A stretch of 64,000 nucleotides of DNA from Haliclystus octoradiatus (taxonomy: Eukaryota; Cnidaria; Staurozoa; Stauromedusae; Haliclystidae). The stretch lies in assembly GCA_916610825.1 (NCBI GenBank), contig OU744449.1, positions 21,651,793-21,715,792 on the forward strand, read 5' to 3'. The translations under genes were made by a program, and so were the position numbers. Below the pieces are notes generated by a model, which was not told where the DNA came from, did not search any database, and saw only the letters and a list, made by a program, of their open reading frames with translations. Of this stretch, positions 2,045 to 64,000 are shown piece after piece; the stretch's first letter is position 1, and each line of letters opens with the position of its first letter.

Positions 2045-5000
2045 ACTAAGAAACATGTTTTTCAATGCGCATGCGTAAAACCTCGCTAAAACCCTAAGTC
2101 TAGCCGAGACTACTATTGAAATGACAAAAGTAAAAACAAAATGAGTGTTCGACATTGCCAAGTTCGACGTCTTGATATGTTATCCTGCTTCATTTCTAAA
2201 AGCTCAAAATGCTCTCTATTATCATTTTCTTCTTGATGGTAATTTAACTCAAAGTGTTTTGAATGTAAGAACATAATTTATCATAAAGCAAGCAGTCTTT
2301 TTCTTTACCAGAAACTGGAAGTTGCGTCGCAGACGCAGAGTGACGGTCCGAACCTAGCCAGGTTGGTATTAATAAGACAGTAAATACGATCAACTGCAAC
2401 TAATCAACTAAAACTTATGTCTGTTGTTGTCATAACGTTGAACTTTACTAATCCATATGCATATACTGACTCATTTATGCTAGGCTGGCCAATGGCCCAA
2501 TGCCCAATTGCCCATCTGTTTGTCTTCTCTTCATTTTTCACATTTTCAGGACTTCTAACCTACTAATACTTCGGATTAGCCTAGGCCAAATAGTATACTA
2601 CAGCACACTTTACATACTAGTAATTATTATTATTATTTATATGTTGTTATAAAGCCTAAAGAGTATTCTGGAATCCCAGATGCACTTGAACATTTTCTTT
2701 TCAATTTTTTTATTGATGTTTGACCAATAAATTGTAAAATATCAATTTCCTTCTGAATTTGCTCCAATCTTCTGATTCCTACTTTTGTCGAACTCTAGCT
2801 GTAAGATTTTATCCTACGTGAATCAAGTGAATCAATACGCAGCAAATTTAATCAATCATTGGTAAATCTCTTTTACATCTTTAATCAGATAAGTACTACA
2901 TAGATGAGTGTCATTATCAATAATTGGTTGAAACTTGAACATATGTGATATATGCTTAAGTCGCTGATTTCTCTCTAACTTTGTCTTCCGTCTTCTTTGA
3001 TTGTTGAAATGTTCTCCTTGTGGCGTACAGCAGCATCAGATAACTATACATGAATTGCTAAAACTCTAAGGGTATTTATTTATAGGCATACTATTTTATT
3101 TACCAAGGTCATTTACAAATCGCAAGGCCTTAATTGGTTGTAAGGCAATCTTATTTAATGTCTGATGATAGAAAGAAGTTATCCTATTTCTGGTGTATAA
3201 TCCCATGATTTTCACGATAGGAAGTATTTACATTATCCCATGATTTTCATAATAGGAAGCCAATGGAGACTAACTTTGTAACAATACCTAGGACTTATTC
3301 ATCCTCTTGGTGAAGGAGTTTATAGCATATATTTTTAGTTAGAAACCTTCAAGTTTAAAAATAGAGGTAAGCTAATGTTATCAAATTTTGGCAGTTAAAG
3401 CAGTAAGTTATTTCAGCATGAGCGCACAATTTGGATAATTTGTAGTCTGGCAGTAAGCAAAATACTTCATTGAACATGTTATATGACACTGATATTGCAT
3501 TGGTTATGTTGCTAAAAATAACATTTATTTACAAAATTATAAATAAATAATATTCATTTTCAAGATACAGTAAATATAGCCTACATATACAATGAATAAT
3601 GAAATATTTTGATGCAGCCTCAATCGTAGCAGGACCAACAAAATTGCCTAAAAGGTTATTTATTATCCAATAAGATGACGATTGAATTTTGGATTTCAAT
3701 GTTTACATGAACAATGAAGAGTTCCATTTTCTGTTCATAAAACTGTTTTAAGAGCATGCCAGCCTGATTAGCAGAAAATTAGTTCTGTGGACGCTTTGCA
3801 TGATTTCCCTGAACTTCATCAGTTGGTGTGCTTGTCCGGAAGAATGTCTCTTCTTTCTTATCTGCATAAAAAATGGTATTTGGTAGGCTATTGGGCAAAG
3901 AGAGATCAACATCTATGTAATTTAGTGTCCTACATGACAGAGGATTCACCTGGTCACCCGCACTGGAACATAGAGTAACTAACTATTAGAGCTTGTATCA
4001 TAGGATTCGATTTGTGTAATTATTATTAAATTTGTAGAAAGATGATTTCTTACTATATTGCTTTCGTCCTGTAATTGCCTAAATCACATTTATTGTACTC
4101 CTGTTTAGACATATGAGCCTAGAAATTGCCCAAAACAATGCTAAAGATGAAATGATATATTGTTTTAATTTGTTTACTTCTCTGATGTATTTTGAGTATT
4201 ATGTATTTAGTATGCCGGAACCTGGATCCTGTATTTTGTATATCTGGTGTACATTGTTACTAAATAGCAGCAACATTTTGCTGTTGAGGATTATTGTTTC
4301 ACATTTTCTGAGGGGGGGGGGTATTAATTCTCTTGCATAGATTGAAGTGAAATTTGAGGCACAAGTGACCCTTCGTGCAACACATAAAACAGGACAGACC
4401 TGAAATTAATTTTGGAGAATCTTGAATTCCAACATCTCAACCTATAGTGTTCTTAGCGGCTGAGAAACTGGGTCTATATGAAAACGGTGATCATCATAAT
4501 TGTTCGATCACCAGGCTGCATGCTTAAATAATCCTCATTGTAACAGAAGCAGGTTTTCAATATTTTCAAATTATCTTATCTCGTCTTCAAGCAGGTCAGA
4601 AATGGAATGTTTTCAAGTTTATAGAATATTTATATGAAATCTAAAAAGTTACACAATAGTTGATATTGAATTTTTCTACATGTGAAACAATAAGTGATAC
4701 ACGAAGAAAGGGAAATCACCTCCAAGAGATATGCTTGCAGATATAATACAAAGATAATGGTTGAGACTGCAACAAGTTCTACAACAAAACAATTTTGATT
4801 CAAAGCATCTGCGAGTTGATATAGGCATCGAGCAAACCTTACTCTGTCTCTGTGTTGTTATATTTTTGTATTTTGTTCCCAACATATGTGAATTATGCAA
4901 AATAAAACACTTACCATGATGCGATTGGAAGACCGACCATGATCGTGAAAACAGTTTGGTAGGCACAAGACTCTAATTGTGGATGTAGGTATCTATAATC

Positions 5001-5850
5001 ATGTGCAGTCATCGAGTATAAACACTTTGAACATCATCATTGAGCCTCAAAAAAGCAAGGCTAGATCGATGCAACATCTGAACTTCAAGCATAGAAGGGT
5101 GAGATGAACGAAATAATTCTGATTGTACACAGTGCCATAAGCTTATCTCTCAAGTCATGAACTATTAGCGTTCATCGCTCCAACATTTAATATGAATTAT
5201 CAAAAACAATACGATGCTTCATATCCTTGATTCAAACGAGAGTATGACAATGTCAATATCTAATATACAAATGCCATTCATCCATATGTATATATAAATG
5301 ATAATGCAACATGCTTTGTACTTTATAGGCTGATTTTATCAAACTTAACTGCCAATTTTTCGAGGCAGCTGCCAGCTGCTAACAGAAATCTTCTGACGAA
5401 TTGGCTTATCAAAGTTTAAAACCCAACACCAGATATTATCTCATGAACAAACTCTATTATAATTCAAATCCAGTCATTAAATGTCCACGTTGTTAAACAT
5501 TATAGGAAATAAGTAAAGACAGCAATTCAGTCTAATTAAATATACTGAAAACAGCGTTTCAATTCTCCAGGGTAGGCAGGCAAATTAAATAAACTTAACG
5601 AATGATTCGAAGCATGGAAGCAGACTTTTGAAAATTTGGATATTATTGAAAAAGTGGTGAGTCAGACTTCATGACGTAGGGGATATTTCAGCCAATCAAG
5701 ATGGCTTACAGCTCCACGTGATCTCAAGGTCGCATGTGATTGGGCATTTCCAAATTCTGAAATGGTGGGCCAACTTTTAGTAAGAAATTCCTCTAGCCCG
5801 AGTGCAGCGACTCTCAGTTTCATGGAGCGGAACACGGGATAGAGGCTCTT
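2045..5850. other. Long stretch with no supported gene
   Basis: Only short, uncorroborated open frames occur here. The one at 3787-3978 (+, 63 codons, starting GTG) has no recognisable domain and no good splice context. A 25-base word (atcccatgattttcaygatagg type) is duplicated in tandem at 3200-3259, and a run of nine G lies near 4312-4320. I assign no function to this segment. Confidence 0.5.
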
Positions 5851-7579: not shown

Positions 7580-8206
7580 TGTTATGTTTAAAGAAGATGA
7601 AGTATTAAATGCTATTCTTTCCTATCAAAACATAAAGCTGTAGGTCCAGATAATATTGCAAATGAGCACTTGTATTTCTCTGTGGATATTTTATTACCTC
7701 TATGGACAAAACTTTTTAACCTATGTTTACAACTTGGGACTACTCCTCCTCAATGGATGCACAGCACTTTCAAACTGTTATTCAAAGGCAAAGGATCCCT
7801 ATATGATCCAAGAAACTACCGTGGAATCACTCTGTTATGCTGTCCTTTCAAAATTTTTACATCACTAATAGATAAGCGCATCAAAGCAAACATTTTTCAT
7901 CTTATCCCACACGAACAATTTGGTTTTCAAGAAGGAAAAAGTACTATTATGGCAATTGAAATACTCCTAGATTACATAAAACATCAATTTTCTTTGAAAC
8001 CCAGTTCAGTCTATTGTGCGTTTGTTGACTTCAAAAAAGCATTCGACAACGTGTTCAGAGAACGTTTGATAATGAAGCTTCAAAATCAATTTTTTGTCAA
8101 AGGGTTACTACTACGTTTAATTTCTGATCTATTACGCGGAAATGCAGTGCTGATTGACGATGGCTTAGGCCTTTCATCATTATTTTGTATACATTTCCGT
8201 TATTAA
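7580..8206 (+). pseudogene. Non-LTR retrotransposon reverse transcriptase fragment
   Basis: From about 7580 the frame reads into FKEDEVLNAILSYQNIK, then after a frameshift near 7640 continues as AVGPDNIANEHL and KGSLYDPRNYRGITLL, a QFGF-x-x-G-K-S-T segment, and AFVDFKKAFDNV. These are the early fingers and palm motifs of a LINE reverse transcriptase, including the first catalytic aspartate in FVDFKKAFD. The piece ends before the downstream DD motif, so it lacks the active-site pair. Both ends are truncated and there is no poly(A) tail. It belongs to the CR1/Jockey-type part of the non-LTR tree, but I cannot name the clade. Confidence 0.85.
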
Positions 8207-10518: not shown

Positions 10519-11420
10519 GTATACTCTAATCTATCTAATCATCAAGCATGGTTGCAAGCATGGGACTAACTATAAGTAACTAGCAATAGGTGATCCACTT
10601 TGCTGGATAATCTGCAGATATTGAAAATTATCTTTATTATTACAGTTAATTCTATATTAAAGAAGGAGCTACTGTTATTTCTCAAATATTGATAAATACT
10701 AATACATGATAGAAATTCGTAATAGAAATTGCAACTGCAAGTCATAAATTGCTCGATGGCGTACTCAGCGTCAATGATGCATATGCACATGTTTTAGTCT
10801 GGACGCAGGCTAGTGTTATCTTGGTCATCTATGTGCTAGATGCGTTCCGGTTTCTTTTCTCTTTCTTCCCCCCTTTCTTCTATTCATCAATATATCATTG
10901 CCTTGATGAATGATGACATTGATAACATACCGTTCCAGCAGACAAAAATGGCACTCCATCAAACCCAAAAGAAATACCTTTCTTGGTAAACATGGACCAT
11001 TATGGCCAAGATTGACTCTTCGCTTCTAGGAGGAGCTCTACTGCTTCTTTTTCTGTGTACACGCAAAATGATCAATTTCATTCCCAGCCCCAGCCCTTAT
11101 TTTACAAAATATACATATACAGGATATAATAAGATTGATTCAGGTTATATGATTTAATATCCATCAAATCATTTCAATTCCTTTAATTCCTTTCAATATG
11201 AAGCCAGATTTTGAGCGAGGTGGAGGTGTTATACGCAGCTTCTATAAAAATAATCTAATTGATTAACTATTAAGTAGCACCGAATATTACACATGTATTT
11301 TAAACTCACTTTATGAATTGAGTTCATTCTACATTATCTCATTTATATTCTTTAACTTCCATTTATATTTTCATTTATTATTCCAATCAATCGTTGGCTT
11401 TTATACATCCATCAGATGAA

Positions 11421-11699
11421 ATGGAAACAGGAGAACTTTTCAAGGTAGAAAAGATTTTAAATCAACGAAGACAGAATGGAAATGAAGAAGTGCTGGTCAA
11501 ATGGCTTAAGTATAGTAATCGTTTTAACTCATGGGAACCTAAAGAAAATATTATCAATCTTTCTGATGTCCAACGAAGTGAAGTTCAACGCATTTCAATG
11601 ACCATTATACTCATTCAACCGCAGAGGAAGAATCAAGCATCACAGAGAAATCAAACAATGCGACATAGAAAAGGCATTGAAAACAACAAAAGAATTTGA
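11421..11699 (+). pseudogene. Chromodomain module of the retroelement
   Basis: The first in-frame ATG at 11421 (upstream frame is also open) leads into FKVEKILNQRRQNGNEEVLV and then KWLKYSNRFNSWEPKENI. This is a textbook chromodomain: V-E-K-I-L, a basic loop, V-K-W-x-x-Y, and N-S-W-E-P, including the aromatic residues that form the methyl-lysine cage. Chromodomains bind methylated histone tails and in chromoviral integrases steer insertion to heterochromatin. Here it precedes the SAP module, with a frameshift between about 11600 and 11680. Confidence 0.85.
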
Positions 11700-12201
11700 A
11701 TCTCACTTTGCAAAGATGAAAGTAGTGGAACTGAAGAATTTCCTTGTGTCTAGAAATCTACCAGTTTCTGGTTTGAAAGCAGTATTAATCCAGAGACTGG
11801 TCAACCACAGCACGACTGAAATCAATAAGGGCACAACAACAACATACCTAGATACAACTGTAGAGTCACCATCACAACAAGCTTCCGCAAACGAAACACA
11901 ATTATTATCAAAATTTATTACTTCAAGGAATCGTACCATGGAGAGAATTCCAAGAGGGGCCCGAGCTGTAGGAGCAGAAATATTAACTGGTATAATCGAT
12001 GATATAATGAAACACAACACAGTATCCTCCTGGCTGAAACTACTCTGCTTTTGGAATATTTGCCTAGCCAAACCAATTCAACAACAGGATGTAAAAAGAA
12101 GCAGAAGAACCAGTCTTACGAACAAAATCAAACATGCATTCATTGAATTTCATACCTTTAGTACAAAAAAAGAAAAAGAAAGCTGTCAATATCTCAGATG
12201 A
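11677..12201 (+). pseudogene. SAP-domain module of the retroelement
   Basis: In the next frame, overlapping the chromodomain frame by about 20 bases, the sequence KMKVVELKNFLVSRNLPVSG and LKAVLIQRLVNH forms a SAP helix-extended loop-helix (residues about 13-45). SAP domains bind AT-rich and scaffold-attachment DNA. The frame is open upstream of 11677, so the original protein was probably continuous with the chromodomain. A second frame change near 12134-12200 leads into the RT. Confidence 0.78.
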
Positions 12202-13765
12202 ACATATGCAATCGAAGAAGATCGCTGAGAAGATCAACCTGAAGGACATCAGAGGAGCCATTCGACTTGCCACTAGCAATGAAACAATAGCTGAAGAATC
12301 GGTGGAAAATACTGCACTTCTGCGCCTCAAACATCCACACAGAAGAGAAGACCTATACAAAATTGAGCAGCTAGACCATTCTCACCAAACACAATCGGTT
12401 AATTGGGAAACTGTAAAACAAGCGATCGAAAGATTTCCATGTGGATCAACAAATGGGCCAAACGGTATCGAACCACAACACCTGAAAGACCTATTGAACT
12501 CAAGTGCCAAAGAAACAAGTAACAAACTTCTACTATCACTAACGTCTTTTATAAACAACATCGGCAATGGAAACATCCCACAACAAATTCTGCCATATTT
12601 CTTTTGTGCAAAGCTACTTGCATTCAATAAAGACAATGGAGACCTTCGACCAATAGCAGTTGGAAACACCCTTAGACGTCTGAGTTCCAAAATCTATGCT
12701 GATTACAGCAAAGGAAAAGCTACAGAGTTCTTTCATCCAAACCAGCTCGGAGTGGGAACACCTCTTGGATGCGAACCGGCAGTTCATGCAACAGCAACAG
12801 TAATAGATAACTTGAACCAAGAAGACATCCTAATCAAGATCGATTTCTCAAATGCCTTCAATTCTGTACATAGAGACAAACTTTCGGAAAACGTCTATCA
12901 ACACTTTCCAGAAATATATAATTATTTACATCAATCGTATGCACAGTCATCATTATTATTTTTCGGACAAAACCACATCCTCCATTCCGCAGAAGATATC
13001 CAACAAGGAGATCCGCTAGGACCACTTCTTTTTAGCCTCATCATTCAACCAATCATTGACTCACTACAGAGCCCATTGTGCATATGGTATCTAGACGATG
13101 GAACAATAGCTGGGCCAAAGGAAACAGTCATCAAAGACCTACAGATCATAGAAACTATGGGTTCTCAAATTGGGCTATTCCTCAACAAGTCTAAGTGTGA
13201 AGTTATTTCAAAAGCTGAACTCGACAAAGAAGACTCATTGGACGGCTATAGACGCACCCCAATTGATGAGTTGACGCTACTTGGCGGACCAATAGGAGAA
13301 AAGGCCATAGAAACCATACTCAACCTTAAAACCGAAGAACTAAGAAGAATGAACTCCACATTTACTCTCCTGGACTCTCACCACGCACTCTACCTCCTCC
13401 AACATTGTTTCTCAACTCCAAGGCTTCTACACATCCTTAGATGCTCACCATGTTTTGGGTACGATCTTCTTCAAAATTGGGACTGCGCTTGCAAAGAAGG
13501 TCTCGAGTCAATCTTGAATATAAACTTGGACAACGAAAAGTGGAAACAAGCTAATTTACCTATATCAGCAGGTGGTATTGATGTACGCTCAGCTTCAGAC
13601 ATCGCTCTTCCTGCTTTCATATCATCAGTATTGAACTCTTCATCTTTGGTCAAATCTCTCCTTTCTGCAGCCCTTCAGGACTGTACCGTACCTACTGCAC
13701 TTCATTGTGGGAAAACAGTAGAGCTGCCACAACCATTCAAACAGAAAGAACTTGATGCTGCTTAA
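12134..13765 (+). pseudogene. Reverse transcriptase module of the retroelement
   Basis: A 543-codon frame carries the RT core: a GPNGIEP segment (residues 108-114), LRPIAVGNTLRRL (171-183), IDFSNAFNSVHR with the first catalytic aspartate (236-247), QQGDPLGPLLFSL (290-302) and IWYLDD with the catalytic pair (317-322). All three catalytic aspartates are present. The apparent Met at 12134 is probably not the true start, because the SAP frame runs in from upstream through a frameshift. The frame ends at an in-frame TAA at 13763-13765, after which homologous sequence continues in the same frame. Confidence 0.9.
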
Positions 13766-14529
13766 GTCCTTCAGAAGCAAAAAGCTATGCAAGAGACTGT
13801 CTCGTCACAAAAGGACATGGCCAGGTTGAGAGCTGTTCAATCAAAAGAATCTGGAGCTTGGCTCCAAGCTATACCATCAGCTCCACTTGGACTGTTCCTT
13901 TCAAACTCAGAGATTCGGATAGCTACCGCCCTGCGACTGGGTTCAAAGGTCTGCGAAGAGCATACCTGTAGATGCGGAGAAAACGTTTCAGTTGATGGGA
14001 CGCATGGCCTTGCCTGCAAAAAATCTGCGGGCCGTTGGTCACTGAATAACATCATCTGAAGAGCATTATCATCAGCACACGTACCTTCTATACTGGAACC
14101 ACCCGGCCTAAGTAGGGACGATGGACAAAGACCTGATGGTGCTACACAAATCCCATGGAAAAATGGAAAATGCGCTGTGTGGGACGTAACTTGTGTAGAT
14201 ACCTTGGCTGCATCCAACATACCAAAGTCAGCAAAAGGAAGTGGGAAAACAACAGAACAAGCTGAAAAAAAAAGATTAAAAAATACGCAGGATTATCCGC
14301 TAACTACATCATACAACCAGCTACTTTCGAAACTTTGGGATCATTCAGCGAAGGAACAAAGAATTTTATTGATACCATTGCCAAGAAGCTAACCATCGCA
14401 ACTGGTGAAAAGCGCTCAAGAGCTTTTCTGATGCAAAAATTGAGTATCGCAATTCAGAGAGGTAACTGCACAAGCATTATGGGAACTTTACCGACTTGTG
14501 ATGGCATTACAGAAATTTTTAACATGTAG
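13766..14529 (+). pseudogene. C-terminal zinc knuckle and restriction-like endonuclease of the retroelement
   Basis: The RT frame continues past the TAA at 13763-13765 with a C-x-C...H-x-x-x-x-C cluster (CRCGENV, then HGLACKK). An in-frame TGA at 14057-14059 follows, then [11 protein letters not shown] and VWDVTCVDT, then a frame change near 14335 into SRAFLMQKLSIAIQRGN. The CCHC knuckle followed by R-P-D and a downstream W-D resembles the PD-(D/E)XK endonuclease arrangement of R2-type non-LTR elements; that assignment is inference. The breaks mean the copy cannot make an intact protein. Confidence 0.75.
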
Positions 14530-14689
14530 ATAATATGCAAAGAGTTCAAAGTTGTAAATAGTTTTTTAGATCTTACATCTTCGTAGCTCTTTTTCTTTTT
14601 TTTAGAAAATATAAAATGTAATAAAATTAATTAAAAATGGATTAAAATATAATGAATAAAAAAAAAAAAAAAATTCCTTTATTAAATTA

Positions 14690-16023: not shown

Positions 16024-19000
16024 TCATCGTTGTCTCTTCATTAATGTTTTTTCAATAGATCGAACTTCAAACTTTACAGGACAGCTGAGTAGTGCTGTCA
16101 ATAGCTTCTCGTTAAATGCAATCAGAAAATACAATTTATGCTGTGCGTGAATACCAAATGCTTTCACAAACATTGCTATAGAAATTTTATTCAATCGTCT
16201 TTTGATAATGATATCTGAAGCACACAAATCATAAAATGTTCCTTCGACAATCTTACGGATAACAATATCATCAATCAGGCACTCATGAGCCCAATGACTT
16301 CCTTCTAAACTACCTGCAAAATCAAACAAAACAATATTTTTAGATTGGCAACTTGACAGTTATTTAAAAAGAGAGAAAATTATTAGAATTCTCCCCTGCG
16401 AAAAACAGTTCAGGAGTTCATGAACCCTCACAGACAGTTCATGAACAGTTCATGAACAGTTCATGAAACTTTGGGGCCATTTAACGTTCATGAACTGTTC
16501 ATGAACTCCTGAACTGTTTTCGCAGGGGCTTAAAAAAATCATTGGCTATGCATGCACATGTTTAATCTTATTTAATATTGAGCCTCATTACTTTTCTACA
16601 AATTAAAAAATCAAACATTTCTCTTAGTTGGTAAGCTGTTAGCCTAACCGTTTTCTGAATCTAATAATAACATTTATTTTTATTTTTATAGTACTTATTA
16701 TTCTTGCCATACCAATAAAATAAACTGTTGAATTTGTTGGACTTGTGCAACCTACAACACTGTAGGCCTACTCTATATATTGATAATAGTTTGTTTTGAA
16801 ATTGATATAATTCTAAGCGTCAGCAAAACAAACTTCCACAGTATATATGGATGCTGAATAATGCTTACATAGTTTCTAATTTTATCTTTTATGATTTGAT
16901 AATATTTCTTTTATTTATTTATTTATTTGATATTTATTATTTATTTGGAAATGTGTTTGATTATCAAATTTGTCTATAAAATATAGCAGAGCTTAAATAA
17001 TAAAAGTCAGAGAATCAGACAGTCATGTTTGCTACTTGAAGTTTCACGCTGAGGCGATCATCAGGCAATCTATTCAATGATAAAAAACATTATACCTGAA
17101 AAGGTAACCTCAAGTAGCAAACATGACTGTCTGATTCTCTGACTTTTATTATCCTTTTCATATGATAATAAATAGCCTATCATTATGGAATTGATAATAC
17201 AAATAAATAAAAGCACTATAGTCTGACTTGAGCAATTAGTATAGGAAATATTGGATACCACTCCTCCTTGGACTGATCTATAAGTCCCGCTTTGATATAC
17301 AGCAATTTGACGAGCGGTAAGCGGGACTTATTCCCTTCGTACAGCGTAGTGCAGGATTCTGCACAACGGCATCTGTTTGATCGTATTGTTCTGACAAATT
17401 ATCACGCATTTGATGTACGCGGAAAGATGGGGTTCGACATTACGAAAATTAATGATAGATGCAACATGCAAGCCAAAATAAAATGAATTAAATCTATATG
17501 GAAACTTATGGTTATTAAATCAAGTCGACTAACTGATTGCTGTCAAAAATTACAAACTTATTTCAACGTCATCATTCAAAATACAGATGGCGAAATTATC
17601 TGTAAATGTTTTTACCCTTCAGGATTGTTTAAGATTATATCATTGTGAATGCTTTTGGTTACCATCGAAAATTCAGCAGTTCCACGTCGTGTACAAGAGC
17701 AAGGGAAAGATTTATTCAGAATATAGCAACAATCAAGTGTAGTGTTTATGATTTCCACAATGAATCATATTTCAATCTGCATTTCGATCTCCAACGAGCG
17801 CTCAAAAAGTTTGCAGTAAACAGCAGCGTTCGCTAAATCAATGACTCGCCAGAATCAGTAAGTTAGAATAATAAAATCAGTTTTCCAGTTTAATTAGCTC
17901 CAATACCCTGAAATATATATACAACAAGTGACTCAAGCCACTATTTCTTTCAAATATTTTAGCATCTTTTAAAATTTCAGGCTTACATATTTTACGATTC
18001 GTTCGCTGTTGACCGTTGACACCCTGGAATACTCAAATAAAACTACGTGTTTTCTAAAACAATAGAATTGCCAAAGGACACCAGTCTCACTTACAAACAT
18101 ATCAAAATCGTCAAAGTAAAAGTGAGACTTGGGCAAGTCAAACTCCTCCTCAGCTCTCAATAAATGGAAGATTCTGGGAGTGAGAGTCCTGAAAGGCTAG
18201 CACAAATTCAGAAGAAAATTGAAGAAATAGTTGTATTCGAGTTTCTTTGATCAGAAGAAAAATCATTTCTTTTCATTTCTTGGACAGAGAAGCATTAAGG
18301 CTGTGCAGTTTTTATCATATTTTTTTTTAGACAATAACCGTAAAATGAAAAGATGTGAAAACGTTTACGTGAAAATGATCCCGAAAAGTTTGTAAGAAAA
18401 ATTGGAATCCAGAAAGGAAATATCTTTTATCAGACCCTGCTTCTCCCACATTAGGTTATCATTCTGTGGGAGGTGACAAAGACATATGCCCCTCAACCAC
18501 TGCATGACATCCTTCATTGGCATCAGAAGGAAATGTCTCGACGGGGTTATGGGAGAGTAGTATCTTTTCATAATGTTTTGTATCGTGAATTGTGCTATTT
18601 ACAAGTTTCTTTTTCAGCTATGTCTGACCGTGATTTGTGGCGTTCTTTGTGTAACAAATATGTAAGGCGTATTATGCGGGTATCAGCGGCTTTTCCAGGA
18701 GGTGAACCCCGGGGAACCCAGGGGGGATGGTTGAGATTTGCTAGAGAACAGATAAAAGCATGACGGGTATTGTTGTTGAATCTTTTGTAAGAAAATTTAA
18801 AAAAATCATCATTTTCAATATTTTTTGTACCTGGGGGAGGGGGATTATTGGAAATTATTACCCCCATATCCTAGGGGGTTAATTGACTTTTGCACAGATT
18901 GTTTAGCGAACCCCGGGGGTCACCCCCGGGAAAGCTGCTGATACCCGCATAAGAGGGATGGCACATTTCTATAATGTGACTGTTTATACTACTACTACTA

Positions 19001-24563: not shown

Positions 24564-50220
<25,657 letters not shown>

Positions 50221-52440: not shown

Positions 52441-52785
52441 GTATGTTACAACAATTATAGTTTCATTTGTGAACGTATGTCTTCGATTGGTTTCTTTGTT
52501 AGTGTAGCTTTTCTCCGAGGAGTTTATCTTGGCAGGAACTCTTCCGTGTGTTTTGCAATCACTTTTATTGGCACCTTTTGACTCAATGAGGACATGTTCT
52601 GCCAAATTTACCTGGCTTTTGAAACCTTTCCAAAGTATTGTTTTAACTTTCTTATGTTGTGTTCGTATCTTCTTTCAAAAAAATCTCAACACGCATTTTT
52701 ATCTTATCTATTTGTCCTGCCATGACCCTATAACTTTTAATTAATAAGCTGTAAGCCTATAAAAAGCTTATTATTGTTGCCAATA

Positions 52786-52985
52786 NNNNNNNNNNNNNNN
52801 NNNNNNNNNNNNNNNNNNNNNNNNNNNNNNNNNNNNNNNNNNNNNNNNNNNNNNNNNNNNNNNNNNNNNNNNNNNNNNNNNNNNNNNNNNNNNNNNNNNN
52901 NNNNNNNNNNNNNNNNNNNNNNNNNNNNNNNNNNNNNNNNNNNNNNNNNNNNNNNNNNNNNNNNNNNNNNNNNNNNNNNNNNNNN
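52786..52985. other. Assembly gap, 200 N
   Basis: Exactly 200 undetermined bases, a conventional gap size rather than a measured length, at the edge of a long microsatellite that probably stopped the assembly. Confidence 0.99.
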
Positions 52986-53252
<267 letters not shown>

Positions 53253-53259
53253 TGTTGTC

Positions 53260-56200
53260 GATGATGAAATGGAAGTTTGTCACATATGTCTATTGATTTC
53301 TATATTTATTATTAATGTCTTTTCATTGCAGCAAAATTGCCGGCTATCGCTATCAGTAGACATGTGAGATTATGTTGGATAAATAAGAATTTACCCAGTG
53401 TGGGTTTGTTTACAAATGTGATATCGTTCCTATCCGAATAGTTTATAAATGGTTTTCAAAAACATTGATTATATAATTTCCATTCTGACGCATGACCATA
53501 CACAAAACAAAAGATCAGTCTGCACTGTTGCTCAGAGACAATAGAAAGTCATTCAAGTGCGAAACCAGAGCCATCGATATACAAGAGTTGGGACACACTC
53601 TCATGTTGCCGCTGAGCATCTTATTGGCCAACGCGATTATCACGTGACACATGGGCGCCATTTATGTTCGTGATTTCTGAAAGACTTCAACTTAGCGCGA
53701 AGAAATTGCATGTGTTTTGAATTCGAAGGATGTAAATATTGCAAATTATATTGTAATATGGTAGTTATTCTGCCACGAATGGGTATGATATTATAAATTT
53801 TCATGTTCTGATGATAGATAGATTATATATTTCGAGCATTTCAATTTCAAAGATTACAAACCATTTGATAGAATAATAATGAAACTCAGAGTTAGAACAC
53901 AACACATATACATTTAATCAATAAGTATGCTCTTCCAAATTGTGTTGCAAATTTGTAAAAATTTGAACTATAAATTAAATATTTACGGTTAAATACAAAG
54001 CTGGATTAAGGCTTTTGATATGACACACAAAGTCACACGATAAAAACTGAATCATTAGATCGATTTGTGAGATGATTCATTATTATGATTTATCGTTTTA
54101 CGATTTCAATATTGATACACTATACAGTATTTTACATATTACATATTACATATTATTAACAAAATAATGATCAGATAATGTCCATCAATAACAAAATCAT
54201 ATCAATATGCTTGTAGCGACATATCACATATAACATTGGCAAATAAGCGATTGGTTTCCGAAAACAAAAATTAAAAATCTGAGGTTTCTCAAATTCATTC
54301 TGCATTGATTGGCGATTACAATCTCCTGCAATAAATACATAAAAAAGGTTTATTATAATTCCATCTGCATTATTTACGATCATTTTTTCAGATAAACATA
54401 CCAGCAGCAAAGCCCACTACATAAATCTAAACATCTACAATTGTGTCCATAACAATCAAACCAAAATATCAGTCAGTTATTATCAGTTATAAAAAAGTTA
54501 TTGGAGCTAATACATGAATCCTTTATCCATTTTGGCTTTGGTGCATCTGTCAATGCCCTCAATAGTTATAAAATTCAAATCAATTGCTAGAAAGAATGAA
54601 TATTATGAATGTGTTATAGAGTCTTCAAGACGGCGACGCAATCTCATTCACTACCCTTTCACAACTGTCTATAACCATCCTTACTTTCGGGATACTCCAG
54701 CGGATTACTCAACAACTTATACACCGTTACACTATCTGCTTTGGCCAAGAAAATAATCAGAAAACATTTCAATTACAAATCAGAAATCATACAGCTTCTT
54801 ATCAATCATCAAGCGCAATGCGAGAAAAAGCAATATTAAAAATTGCAAGGAGGGACTATATTCAAATAATTCAGATAAAATAGGTGTAATACTAACTAAC
54901 CTTGTACTTCTGAAACGCTTGTAAAGAAATGTAATTCTACCATTATTTAAAATAACTTCAAGGCTTCAACTGCCTATTTAATGCTGATTTCTTCGCTACT
55001 CCAATTCCAAGGCCAGGCATTCTTTCACAGTGCAAACACGAATCCATCAAGGATGATATTAACAAGCGAATATCAGCGTCAAAGTAGATCAATCGGAATG
55101 AAATGTGTTCTGTGAATTCCATTTCACACTGAGATACACTTTTACTTTGTCAAATTATTAACATACAATCTCAAGCTTAACATACAATTCCAAGTGCTAG
55201 CAAAACATGAACATGCTTGTCAAGAAGCAAGGAAAATGTGTTGCGAAAAAAAGATATCGTTTGTCACAAACGAAAATGTTGCCCATGAATAAGAAATATT
55301 ATCAGATTGAGGCTAAAAAGAACAATAGTGTCCCAACTCTTCTATATCGATGGCTCTGTGCGAAACTGCTTAGTTATCGCTTCAGTCTGGGAAAGCATTG
55401 TTGTTGAAAATGGAAACAGTTTTCATTGGTTTTTATCAACTTCAATGTATTTATTTAAGAAATGAAGCCGGCCATGTACGCCTCTGGTTAATAACGAATC
55501 CATTAATATGTGTTTCGCGTCAATTGCATCAAAATGGCATCGTGAATCCCCGCCTTACATACGGACATACAAATGGAAGTAATAGCGTAAATTTAAAAGT
55601 AGATTGAAAAAGGGAGAATGAAAGTTAATTGACGTCATACTATAAAATTACTATCACGACGAATGAGCAGGATAAGATCGTTACAACTATCGAGCATTCG
55701 TTCGTAAGAATGAAATGTTAGAAATTATAACATATCAAAGATCTGCTACGATTTATTCCAGCAATTTGATTGGTTAACGCCAATAACGTTATTTCCCCAT
55801 AGCCGAGCTAGACCCCGTCGATTACAAGAAATTTATGAAAATACCAAACAACCGATAATTATATTTAAATATGGCATTATGAACTAGCAAGTAATAAAAA
55901 TTAAAAAGCAAATACAGTGAATATTTGTAGAGTCATATACAATTTCATTGAGTTACTGTTTCATGCAGTTTCTCAGTTGTTCAAAATAAATCAAATGGCT
56001 TGCAGGAAAATATCTTAGCCAGTAAACAACCATGTTTAAGGTGTATAGAAATATTTTGCACAAATTAACAATTCAAAAACAATTTGCACAACTTTTATTT
56101 TTTATAGTCAAGAAGTAAGATTCAATAACTAAATTTAATGTTCAACTGTCAATGTTATTAAACGCCTCGTTGGTATCACTTTACTGAGAATGAATTTTGT

Positions 56201-61967: not shown

Positions 61968-63098
61968 TTATATTGTTGCTTGTGATAATACAGATCGAGC
62001 TAATGTACTGCCCGATGTTGATATCGGCTTATTATAAAATTTAGCGAAGGTTTTTGAGTTAGTCCATCCTGCACTATTCAATATCTCCCCTATTGGGGTT
62101 CCTCCTTTAGAGGCTGCTGACGTAGCAGCAGAACGCGTGCTATGCGCTTTAAAAATAGATGTATCTATGCCAGATAATTGTAAACAATTTTTGATCCATC
62201 TAGCAATTGTATCACATGTTACCGGTTTATACGGTTTGATTAAACTAATCAATAACTGTTTGTGGTTGCCTCGCAGTTTTTCAGTAATTAATAGATACTG
62301 CTTTAGGCACATCATAACATCTAGCGCTGGATTATCATGATAGGCTTTAAATTCAATCGTACCTACATGATGCAAAGGCCGCGATGTCTTCAGTAAAGAA
62401 GATATCGTAAAAATGCATTGATTGTTATCTATAGACATTTCATTAATACACAAGGCCTGCAAAGTTTGACAGCGCTGACCAGATAGTAATGCCATCAACA
62501 TAACAGTCTTCATAGTCAATTGCTGATGAGTTAATAGCTCAACTGATGGAATACCAGCAAGATAGTTCAGCACTAAACTTACATCCCAAATATGAGTGTA
62601 TCTAGGTAGAGTAGGTCTGATGTTAAATACTCCTTTCATAAACCTAGTTACCATTGGATGGGAACCAAATGATCCCAATTGATTAGGTAAAATAATAATC
62701 AATGATAATGTACTACGGGCAGTGTTAATGGCACTATAGCCTAACCCCGAATCAAATAACTCAGCCAAAAAGTTTATACCATGTTCCAGAGCAATGTCAT
62801 TGGATTTAATAGCATTTTGTTCACAATATTTTCGCCATTTAGGCAAAGTAGTAGCGTATTGTCTCTTAGTAGATGACTTCCAGGAAGATTTCAATACTTT
62901 GGTTGCCACTTCAGAGAACCGATTGTATGTGTTCCCCTCCCCGACACAGAGCAAAGTAACAAGACTAGCTTCTTGCTCAGCGGGTGCCGCTCCAGTGGTT
63001 TTTGGGGTAACTGCAGAGTCTGCTCCCCCGTTGGTAAACTCACTGGGCACTTCTCCAACATCTGCAACAGCTTCGGCCACCACGGCTGAGTCGGCCAT
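61968..63098 (-). CDS. DIRS tyrosine recombinase
   Basis: 376 codons, uninterrupted, starting at ATG 63098. Residues 63-150 form the SAM-like/core-binding part (SSWKSSTKRQYATTLPKWRK); the catalytic part has R209 (LLSGQRCQTLQA), K237, H319-S-T-R322, W345 and nucleophile Y355 (FAKFYNK). All catalytic residues of the R-K-H-R-H/W-Y set are present, so the frame looks intact. It overlaps the end of the RNase H frame by about 200 bases in a different frame, as is usual in DIRS elements. Confidence 0.92.
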   Translation of the reverse strand: MADSAVVAEAVADVGEVPSEFTNGGADSAVTPKTTGAAPAEQEASLVTLLCVGEGNTYNRFSEVATKVLKSSWKSSTKRQYATTLPKWRKYCEQNAIKSNDIALEHGINFLAELFDSGLGYSAINTARSTLSLIIILPNQLGSFGSHPMVTRFMKGVFNIRPTLPRYTHIWDVSLVLNYLAGIPSVELLTHQQLTMKTVMLMALLSGQRCQTLQALCINEMSIDNNQCIFTISSLLKTSRPLHHVGTIEFKAYHDNPALDVMMCLKQYLLITEKLRGNHKQLLISLIKPYKPVTCDTIARWIKNCLQLSGIDTSIFKAHSTRSAATSAASKGGTPIGEILNSAGWTNSKTFAKFYNKPISTSGSTLARSVLSQATI

Positions 63099-64000
63099 TG
63101 TGGTACTACAAGTAGGCCTGCTGCGCGGTCGGTTGAAATCTTCTGTAATACTTTTGTTATAATGCTAAATGGAGGAAACGCATAAAAGTTCAATTCACTC
63201 CAATTTAAATGAAATGCATTAACAGCCCAGGCATCTGGGTCAGGCCTGTATGAGACATAGCAATCTAATTGTTTGTTCAACCTTGATGCAAATAAATCAA
63301 TTTCCGGTTGAACCTCAATATCCTTAACAGCTTTGCTGAACATTAAAGGATCAAGTCGCCATTCAGATGATACGTGTTTTTGGCGAGACTCTGCATCAGC
63401 AGTAACATTAAGCACTCCGGGAATACGTGCAACTGTGATCCAAATATCCCGAGCAATACACCATTGCCATATATTTCTAGCTAAAGTGTCAAGTTTAATA
63501 GAATGACAAGTTCCCATGTGATTAATTACTGATTCCGCAGTAGTATTGTCTACTAAGACTTTAACATGTAAACCTCTAACAGTAGTTTCAAAAGCACGTA
63601 ATGATAGCCAAACCGCAAACGTTTCCAAATAGTTTATATGCTCCTTAGCCTCGTCTGATGACCAATGGCCACCAGTAGAGTCAGTAGATGTGCTATTAAT
63701 TGAACAACCCCAGCCTGTGTTCGAGGCATCAGTTGTCATATTTATATTAGGAGAGGGGTATGATATAGGCTTATAAGATGTAGTTATTGAAGTGGCCCAC
63801 CAATCGAGCTCACCTAAAGCCCCATCTGATAAAGTCATATTCCCTTCATAGTTGCCATGGCAACGTTTCAATGCATTGGCTTTGTCTGCTTCTAAACGAC
63901 GGTAATACAAAGGGCCCCATCTAGCACCAGGGAATGTAGAAACTAGTTGACCAATCACCTTGGCAACATCCCTCACTGTTGGTTTATGCGATTTAGATAA
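62891..64000 (-). CDS. DIRS reverse transcriptase C-terminal end, RNase H and downstream domain, partial
   Basis: The frame is open to the window edge (the first GTG at 63976 is not a start). Counted from 63976: a short RT tail (FPGARWGPLYYRRLE), RNase H with D83 (NMTTDASNTGWG), E118 (NYLETFAVWLSL), D143 (VLVDNTTAESV) and D194 (TADAESRQ), then a region with EIDLFASRLNKQL, PDPDAWAVNAF and PQWPTQPWWPKLL that is constant in DIRS polyproteins downstream of RNase H. Ends at a stop at 62891. All four RNase H acids are present. The catalytic RT core lies outside the window. Confidence 0.9.
   Translation of the reverse strand, partial: LSKSHKPTVRDVAKVIGQLVSTFPGARWGPLYYRRLEADKANALKRCHGNYEGNMTLSDGALGELDWWATSITTSYKPISYPSPNINMTTDASNTGWGCSINSTSTDSTGGHWSSDEAKEHINYLETFAVWLSLRAFETTVRGLHVKVLVDNTTAESVINHMGTCHSIKLDTLARNIWQWCIARDIWITVARIPGVLNVTADAESRQKHVSSEWRLDPLMFSKAVKDIEVQPEIDLFASRLNKQLDCYVSYRPDPDAWAVNAFHLNWSELNFYAFPPFSIITKVLQKISTDRAAGLLVVPQWPTQPWWPKLLQMLEKCPVSLPTGEQTLQLPQKPLERHPLSKKLVLLLCSVSGRGTHTIGSLKWQPKY

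Follow-up and report, generated by a model that had tools for sequence, protein, structure and literature searches.

Does the retroelement at 11186-14671 of the window (the whole stretch of 64,000 nucleotides of the Haliclystus octoradiatus genome that we analysed) encode one protein that joins a chromodomain and a SAP domain to the reverse transcriptase (RT) of an R2-like LINE, and would such a protein choose its insertion sites by reading chromatin? We conclude that the window probably holds a dead copy of an R2-like LINE of the restriction-like-endonuclease type, one of a group whose chromodomain-SAP/PHD protein would read chromatin in place of DNA sequence.

The element and its copies in the genome

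We read one element in the window, with an A-run lying before the right copy of the flanking repeat (Table 1). The initial annotation had described a single unit of about 3.5 kb, bracketed by a 10-bp repeat and a terminal A run and carrying a chromodomain, a SAP domain, an RT with its catalytic motifs, and a zinc knuckle followed by R-P-D. All of these parts were recovered, the three domains as Pfam matches and the repeat, A-run and motifs by direct reading, with the spacing of the knuckle refined to that in Table 1. The RPD itself occupies 14129-14137 and the further D 14183-14185; a WDxTxxD motif also lies downstream of the RT, after the knuckle and RPD. A chromodomain-like core pattern occurred once in the window and in none of 20 mononucleotide shuffles. 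The solved chains in the Protein Data Bank (PDB) closest to the window chromodomain were 4quc (RE36324p), Rhino and CBX2, and its aromatic-cage positions F, W and Y are kept. Pfam searches of the N-terminal ORFs returned the chromodomain and the SAP domain only, with no R2-type zinc finger/Myb. We found no integrase in Pfam, no long direct repeat at the element ends and no Rfam match within the window. Chromovirus identity was rejected on finding neither LTRs nor an integrase with a C-terminal chromodomain.

Table 1. Positions of the parts of the element in the window
Feature	Position	Strand	Basis
Left target-site duplication aattccttta	11176-11185		Read; 10-bp match to right flank
5' UTR and extreme N-terminus	11186-11420	+	Homology start between copies
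Chromodomain	11439-11561	+	Pfam Chromo E 5.7e-11, above Pfam cut-off
SAP domain	11707-11808	+	Pfam SAP E 1.1e-12, above Pfam cut-off
Linker	11830-12200	+	Window-copy frame shifts inside linker or at linker end
Reverse transcriptase	12629-13210	+	RVT_1 E 2.4e-23, above Pfam cut-off
RT motif DFSNAF	12842-12859	+	Read from sequence
RT motif YLDD	13088-13099	+	Read from sequence
Zinc knuckle C-x1-C-x9-H-x3-C	13967-14017	+	Read; conserved in most rows of alignment A2
RPD...D motif of presumed restriction-like endonuclease	14129-14185	+	Sequence and alignment A2
3' UTR and terminal A-run	14527-14671	+	3' end common to truncated copies
Right target-site duplication aattccttta	14672-14681		Read; 10-bp match to left flank

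The RVT_1 match and the matches of a profile of six RT segments to R2 (3.7e-13) and L1 ORF2p (2.9e-7) in the PDB indicated an RT of the non-LTR type; group II RTs were matched as well (1.1e-9). Taken with the knuckle and the RPD motif, the RT profile points to an R2-like LINE that would nick DNA and prime on the nick. Since the C-terminus had no sequence match in the PDB and no usable model (single-sequence model, mean pLDDT 31), its presumed identity as a restriction-like endonuclease rests on motifs. Proteins with WYLDDG and RPDG are common in invertebrate genomes. The single-sequence model of the N-terminal piece had a mean pLDDT of 59, and a fold search with it found no match at E up to 0.001; with models of such low confidence and an empty fold search, the models neither support nor oppose our reading.

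The genome search that had been proposed as a check (DNA against the same genome, 262 Mb in 33 contigs) gave 53 rows of matches, which lie on nine contigs and include the window itself. The copies share a common 3' end and have scattered 5' starts, as in truncated LINE copies, and most aligned pieces were 86-95% identical to the window copy. We took 26 of 34 copies for a duplication test, dropping eight for internal or rearranged ends; in 5 out of 26 the two flanks had a word of 9 bp or more in common, against 0.035 expected from mismatched flanks. Flanks of the copies with duplications were simply A/T-rich. The window element is mobile and old, and it has LINE traits: no LTRs, a truncation series with a common 3' end, and short target-site duplications. 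Insertion at one 28S rDNA site was not found, the copies being dispersed with differing flanks. Three similar truncated copies (L007, L051 and L027, at 18.92, 18.94 and 18.99 Mb of G000:C7, respectively) have the same breakpoint and, next to it, an inverted 3'-end piece, as would result from duplication of a single rearranged insertion.

The element has retroelement-rich surroundings (window 7601-8203, 25579-26700 and 61971-64000). They include two further fragments of RTs (RVT_1 1.3e-13 and 2.7e-5), as well as a tyrosine recombinase adjoining an RNase H-like ORF, which looks DIRS-like. Downstream of the element, at 16402-16520, a perfect inverted repeat of 24 bp encloses nested GTTCATGAAC repeats. 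Long trinucleotide-type simple-repeat arrays lie at 30204-30600 and 52740-53299, the second partly read as N.

One reading frame pieced together from broken copies

The window copy is broken: its chromodomain, SAP domain and RT lie in three different frames, two in-frame stops follow the RT, and the frame shifts near 14266. One of the two stops is absent from all 14 other copies that span the site. Our claim of one ORF therefore refers to a piece-by-piece comparison among copies and not to the window copy. The junction between chromodomain and SAP domain was in one frame in L002, L003 and L052 and out of frame in L005. The SAP-linker junction was in frame in L001, L002, L003, L005, L020 and L052, and the linker-RT junction in L002, L020 and L052, with L003 and L005 out of frame. 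From the RT to the C-terminus, 9 out of 14 copies were unshifted and 5 out of 14 out of frame. Single stops are present inside several of these in-frame stretches. In a diverged relative (L060), the end of the RT, the knuckle and the RPD motif share one open stretch of 338 codons. The comparison supports one protein frame that joins chromodomain, SAP domain, RT and R2-like C-terminus; the continuity of the chromodomain-SAP-RT frame, which the initial annotation had proposed to test, holds in three other copies each for the chromodomain-SAP and linker-RT junctions and fails in the window copy itself.

An ATG directly precedes the chromodomain in L002 and L020, so the chromodomain start is the probable N-terminus of the protein. 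The initial annotation had named two findings that would count against it, namely copies starting downstream of the chromodomain and a chromodomain belonging to an unrelated upstream element or gene. Many copies do start downstream, scattered as in 5' truncation, and five besides the window copy reach the chromodomain, three of which extend into the common 5' UTR. Homology between copies begins at 11195 (L002) and 11214 (L003), a limit indicating that the chromodomain was not borrowed from an upstream gene. A chance fusion limited to the window copy was rejected, as the five other copies carry the chromodomain too.

Six copies extend as far as the chromodomain, the window copy among them, and every one is broken; with no intact copy seen, nothing shows present activity. 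Codon differences within the family at positions 1, 2 and 3 numbered 9, 3 and 24 in the chromodomain, 29, 22 and 30 in the SAP domain plus linker, and 207, 127 and 203 in the C-terminus, respectively.

Recurrence of the architecture in diverged families

The chromodomain architecture recurs in diverged families of the same genome, once with a PHD finger replacing the SAP domain. We used 67 of the 90 rows from an RT search, dropping 23 of the window family; the rows retained, at 33-59% identity, gave 47 loci, which are a sample, as 78 of 955 candidates were scored. A chromodomain match on the same strand lay at most 5 kb upstream of the RT at 8 out of 47 loci, against 0.05 at random, and within 2 kb upstream at 6 out of 47, against 0.02 at random. 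These figures are based on 104 of 112 chromodomain rows, the eight removed being seven that belong to the window family and one from a small contig. A first chance test with 36 of the 112 rows chosen by eye had given 8 out of 47 loci against 0.0175, and we repeated it with the larger set since a choice by eye could be biased. No chromodomain match was found within 5 kb at the other 39 of the 47 loci, which 5' truncation may explain.

We read eleven diverged loci (L053 to L063). Matches to the chromodomain were obtained by tblastn in seven of them (L053 to L059) and also in L017, which came in through the chromodomain search. Among the pieces checked with Pfam, which were those of loci other than L057 and L058, the chromodomain was above cut-off in L054, L055, L056, L059 and L017 and below it in L053. 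SAP matches were found by tblastn in L053, L054, L055, L057 and L058; L057, the sole locus run for the SAP part with Pfam, gave E 3.4e-12. In L059 (5957-6313, minus strand), one ORF holds the chromodomain with a PHD finger directly behind it (E 1.1e-6, above cut-off), and in L056 (2178-3004, minus strand) a weak PHD remnant (E 0.08) follows the chromodomain upstream of the same RT type. PHD fingers are known in some LINE ORF1 proteins. No chromodomain was seen in the stretches read for L060 to L063; there was little upstream sequence for L060, and an LTR-type integrase ORF precedes L061.

Between the chromodomain-PHD and RT parts of L059, and antisense to them, lies an open 941-aa ORF of another LINE (2600-5425, plus strand; G000:C7 near 3.664 Mb), with RVT_1 (E 1.5e-9), FADDL, a CPCG...H...C knuckle and RLDV...VDVRVFNPF.

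A small RT tree of the loci, drawn without reference LINE clades, split into four groups. Every group has at least one locus with a chromodomain, and one of them combines loci of the SAP type with loci of the PHD type. Between families, pN and pS were 0.365 and 0.654 for the chromodomain, close to the 0.369 and 0.769 of the RT, all calculated on alignments by tblastn, a method biased towards conserved stretches. Of the three aromatic-cage positions known from HP1, the first is F or Y in the alignment, the second W and the third mostly Y; the exceptions are C for W in L055, and F in L058 and L in L059 at the third position. Among viral contigs, 180 pattern matches yielded no confirmed relative.

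Possible chromatin reading, its alternatives and known systems

Judged by their sequences, these elements are R2-like LINEs that form a group of their own, in which a chromatin-reader-like N-terminus replaces the zinc finger/Myb of R2. The protein runs, in order, through chromodomain, SAP domain (PHD finger in at least one family), linker, RT, zinc knuckle and RPD motif. Its C-terminus would nick DNA and its RT prime on the nick, in target-primed reverse transcription. The chromodomain may attach the complex to the methylated tail of a histone, with the SAP domain or PHD finger supplying a second contact, and chromatin reading would then stand in for the DNA-sequence reading of the zinc finger/Myb N-terminus of R2. 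By analogy with the N-termini of R2 and R4/Dong, we infer that the chromodomain, with SAP or PHD, reads chromatin and steers insertion by histone marks. A wider proposal, in which our belief and our doubt are about equal, is that a clade of R2-like LINEs swapped its DNA-reading N-terminus for a modular histone reader (a chromodomain plus an interchangeable SAP domain or PHD finger), its sites being chosen by combined chromatin marks, as an independent non-LTR counterpart of chromoviral targeting. What is understood of LINE targeting comes mostly from elements that recognise a DNA sequence. If the proposal is true, chromatin-guided target-primed reverse transcription could be tested directly in a group of histone-reader-like LINEs, convergence with chromoviral integrases would be shown, and exchangeable reader modules for R2-type systems would be suggested.

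The alternative that survives best, which we nonetheless consider unlikely, accepts the architecture and has the chromodomain and SAP or PHD serve nuclear retention, RNP assembly or the handling of silencing, with insertion blind to chromatin. The A/T-rich flanks described above agree with it, as does the spread of the copies. We compared three sets with a uniform distribution: 40 positions of the window family (obtained by merging the 53 search rows by eye), 43 diverged and 47 chromovirus-like positions. The KS p values were 0.065, 0.44 and 0.18 and the per-contig p values 0.96, 0.43 and 0.38, respectively. This coarse test revealed no clear chromosome-scale clustering, and the chromovirus-like set behaved similarly. 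Against chromatin-blind insertion, the residues of the methyl-lysine cage are mostly kept, and the target reader of R2 and R4 is thought to be N-terminal: the N-terminal domain of R2 reportedly directs insertion, and a like role has been argued for that of R4/Dong (PMC7998251). The interpretation in the initial annotation therefore stands as to one element, one frame and an architecture that we did not find in print in the open-access text covered; insertion targeted to a chromatin state is a proposal to which the copies, scattered across nine contigs with no clear bias, lend no support.

It is highly improbable that one element captured its chromodomain by chance from a host gene or a neighbouring LTR element. 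Donors would be at hand, as chromodomain ORFs are numerous elsewhere in the genome, a number of them within long repeated ORFs resembling chromoviral integrases, but the chromodomain is in frame after a 5' UTR common to copies, and each of the four groups in the small tree has members with it upstream of the RT. That a chromoviral (Ty3/gypsy) remnant was mistaken for a LINE is barely credible: retroelement chromodomains are known from LTR elements (PMC5348765), but here the chromodomain is N-terminal, Pfam gives no integrase, long terminal direct repeats are missing, the RT is nearest to R2, and there are an A-run and a truncation series.

Returning to the proposed R2-like LINE that would read chromatin, we compared it with published elements. 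Among the matches listed from open-access full text, a body that lies outside Repbase and most subscription journals, no chromodomain or SAP domain was reported in a non-LTR element, and we provisionally regard the chromodomain-SAP/PHD-RT-RPD architecture of a LINE as new to print. According to a 2017 paper, which adds a third group, chromodomains had until then been shown in only two groups of LTR elements (PMC5348765); in the accessible text of a 2024 LINE paper, its element is described as having no domain resembling the CRM chromodomain (PMC11288735). Chromoviruses, CoDi-I and Chronos are chromodomain retroelements like the window element, but they are LTR elements; in Chronos the chromodomain adjoins the integrase at the 3' end of pol (PMC5348765), whereas here it is N-terminal in a LINE. 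Retroelement chromodomains can direct integration to heterochromatin, according to the text available (PMC12477314). R4/Dong resembles the window element in its RT, its restriction-like endonuclease (presumed in the window element) and an N-terminus proposed as target reader, and differs in that this N-terminus is SANT/Myb-like and its targets are rDNA or microsatellites (PMC7998251). BLAG of Blattella germanica is also a dispersed, non-site-specific R2-like element, of 3.2-3.7 kb (the window element has 3.5 kb), whose single ORF encodes about 970-1070 aa; its proteins have N-terminal CCHH zinc fingers, and the portion of the paper available mentions no chromodomain, SAP or PHD (PMC7650587). 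With R2 the window element shares the single-ORF order of RT, knuckle and RPD-type C-terminus, solved R2 being nearest in the RT profile. R2 is reported to carry zinc finger/Myb domains at its N-terminus and to have a fixed 28S target (PMC7650587), whereas the elements described here have a chromodomain with SAP or PHD and dispersed copies.
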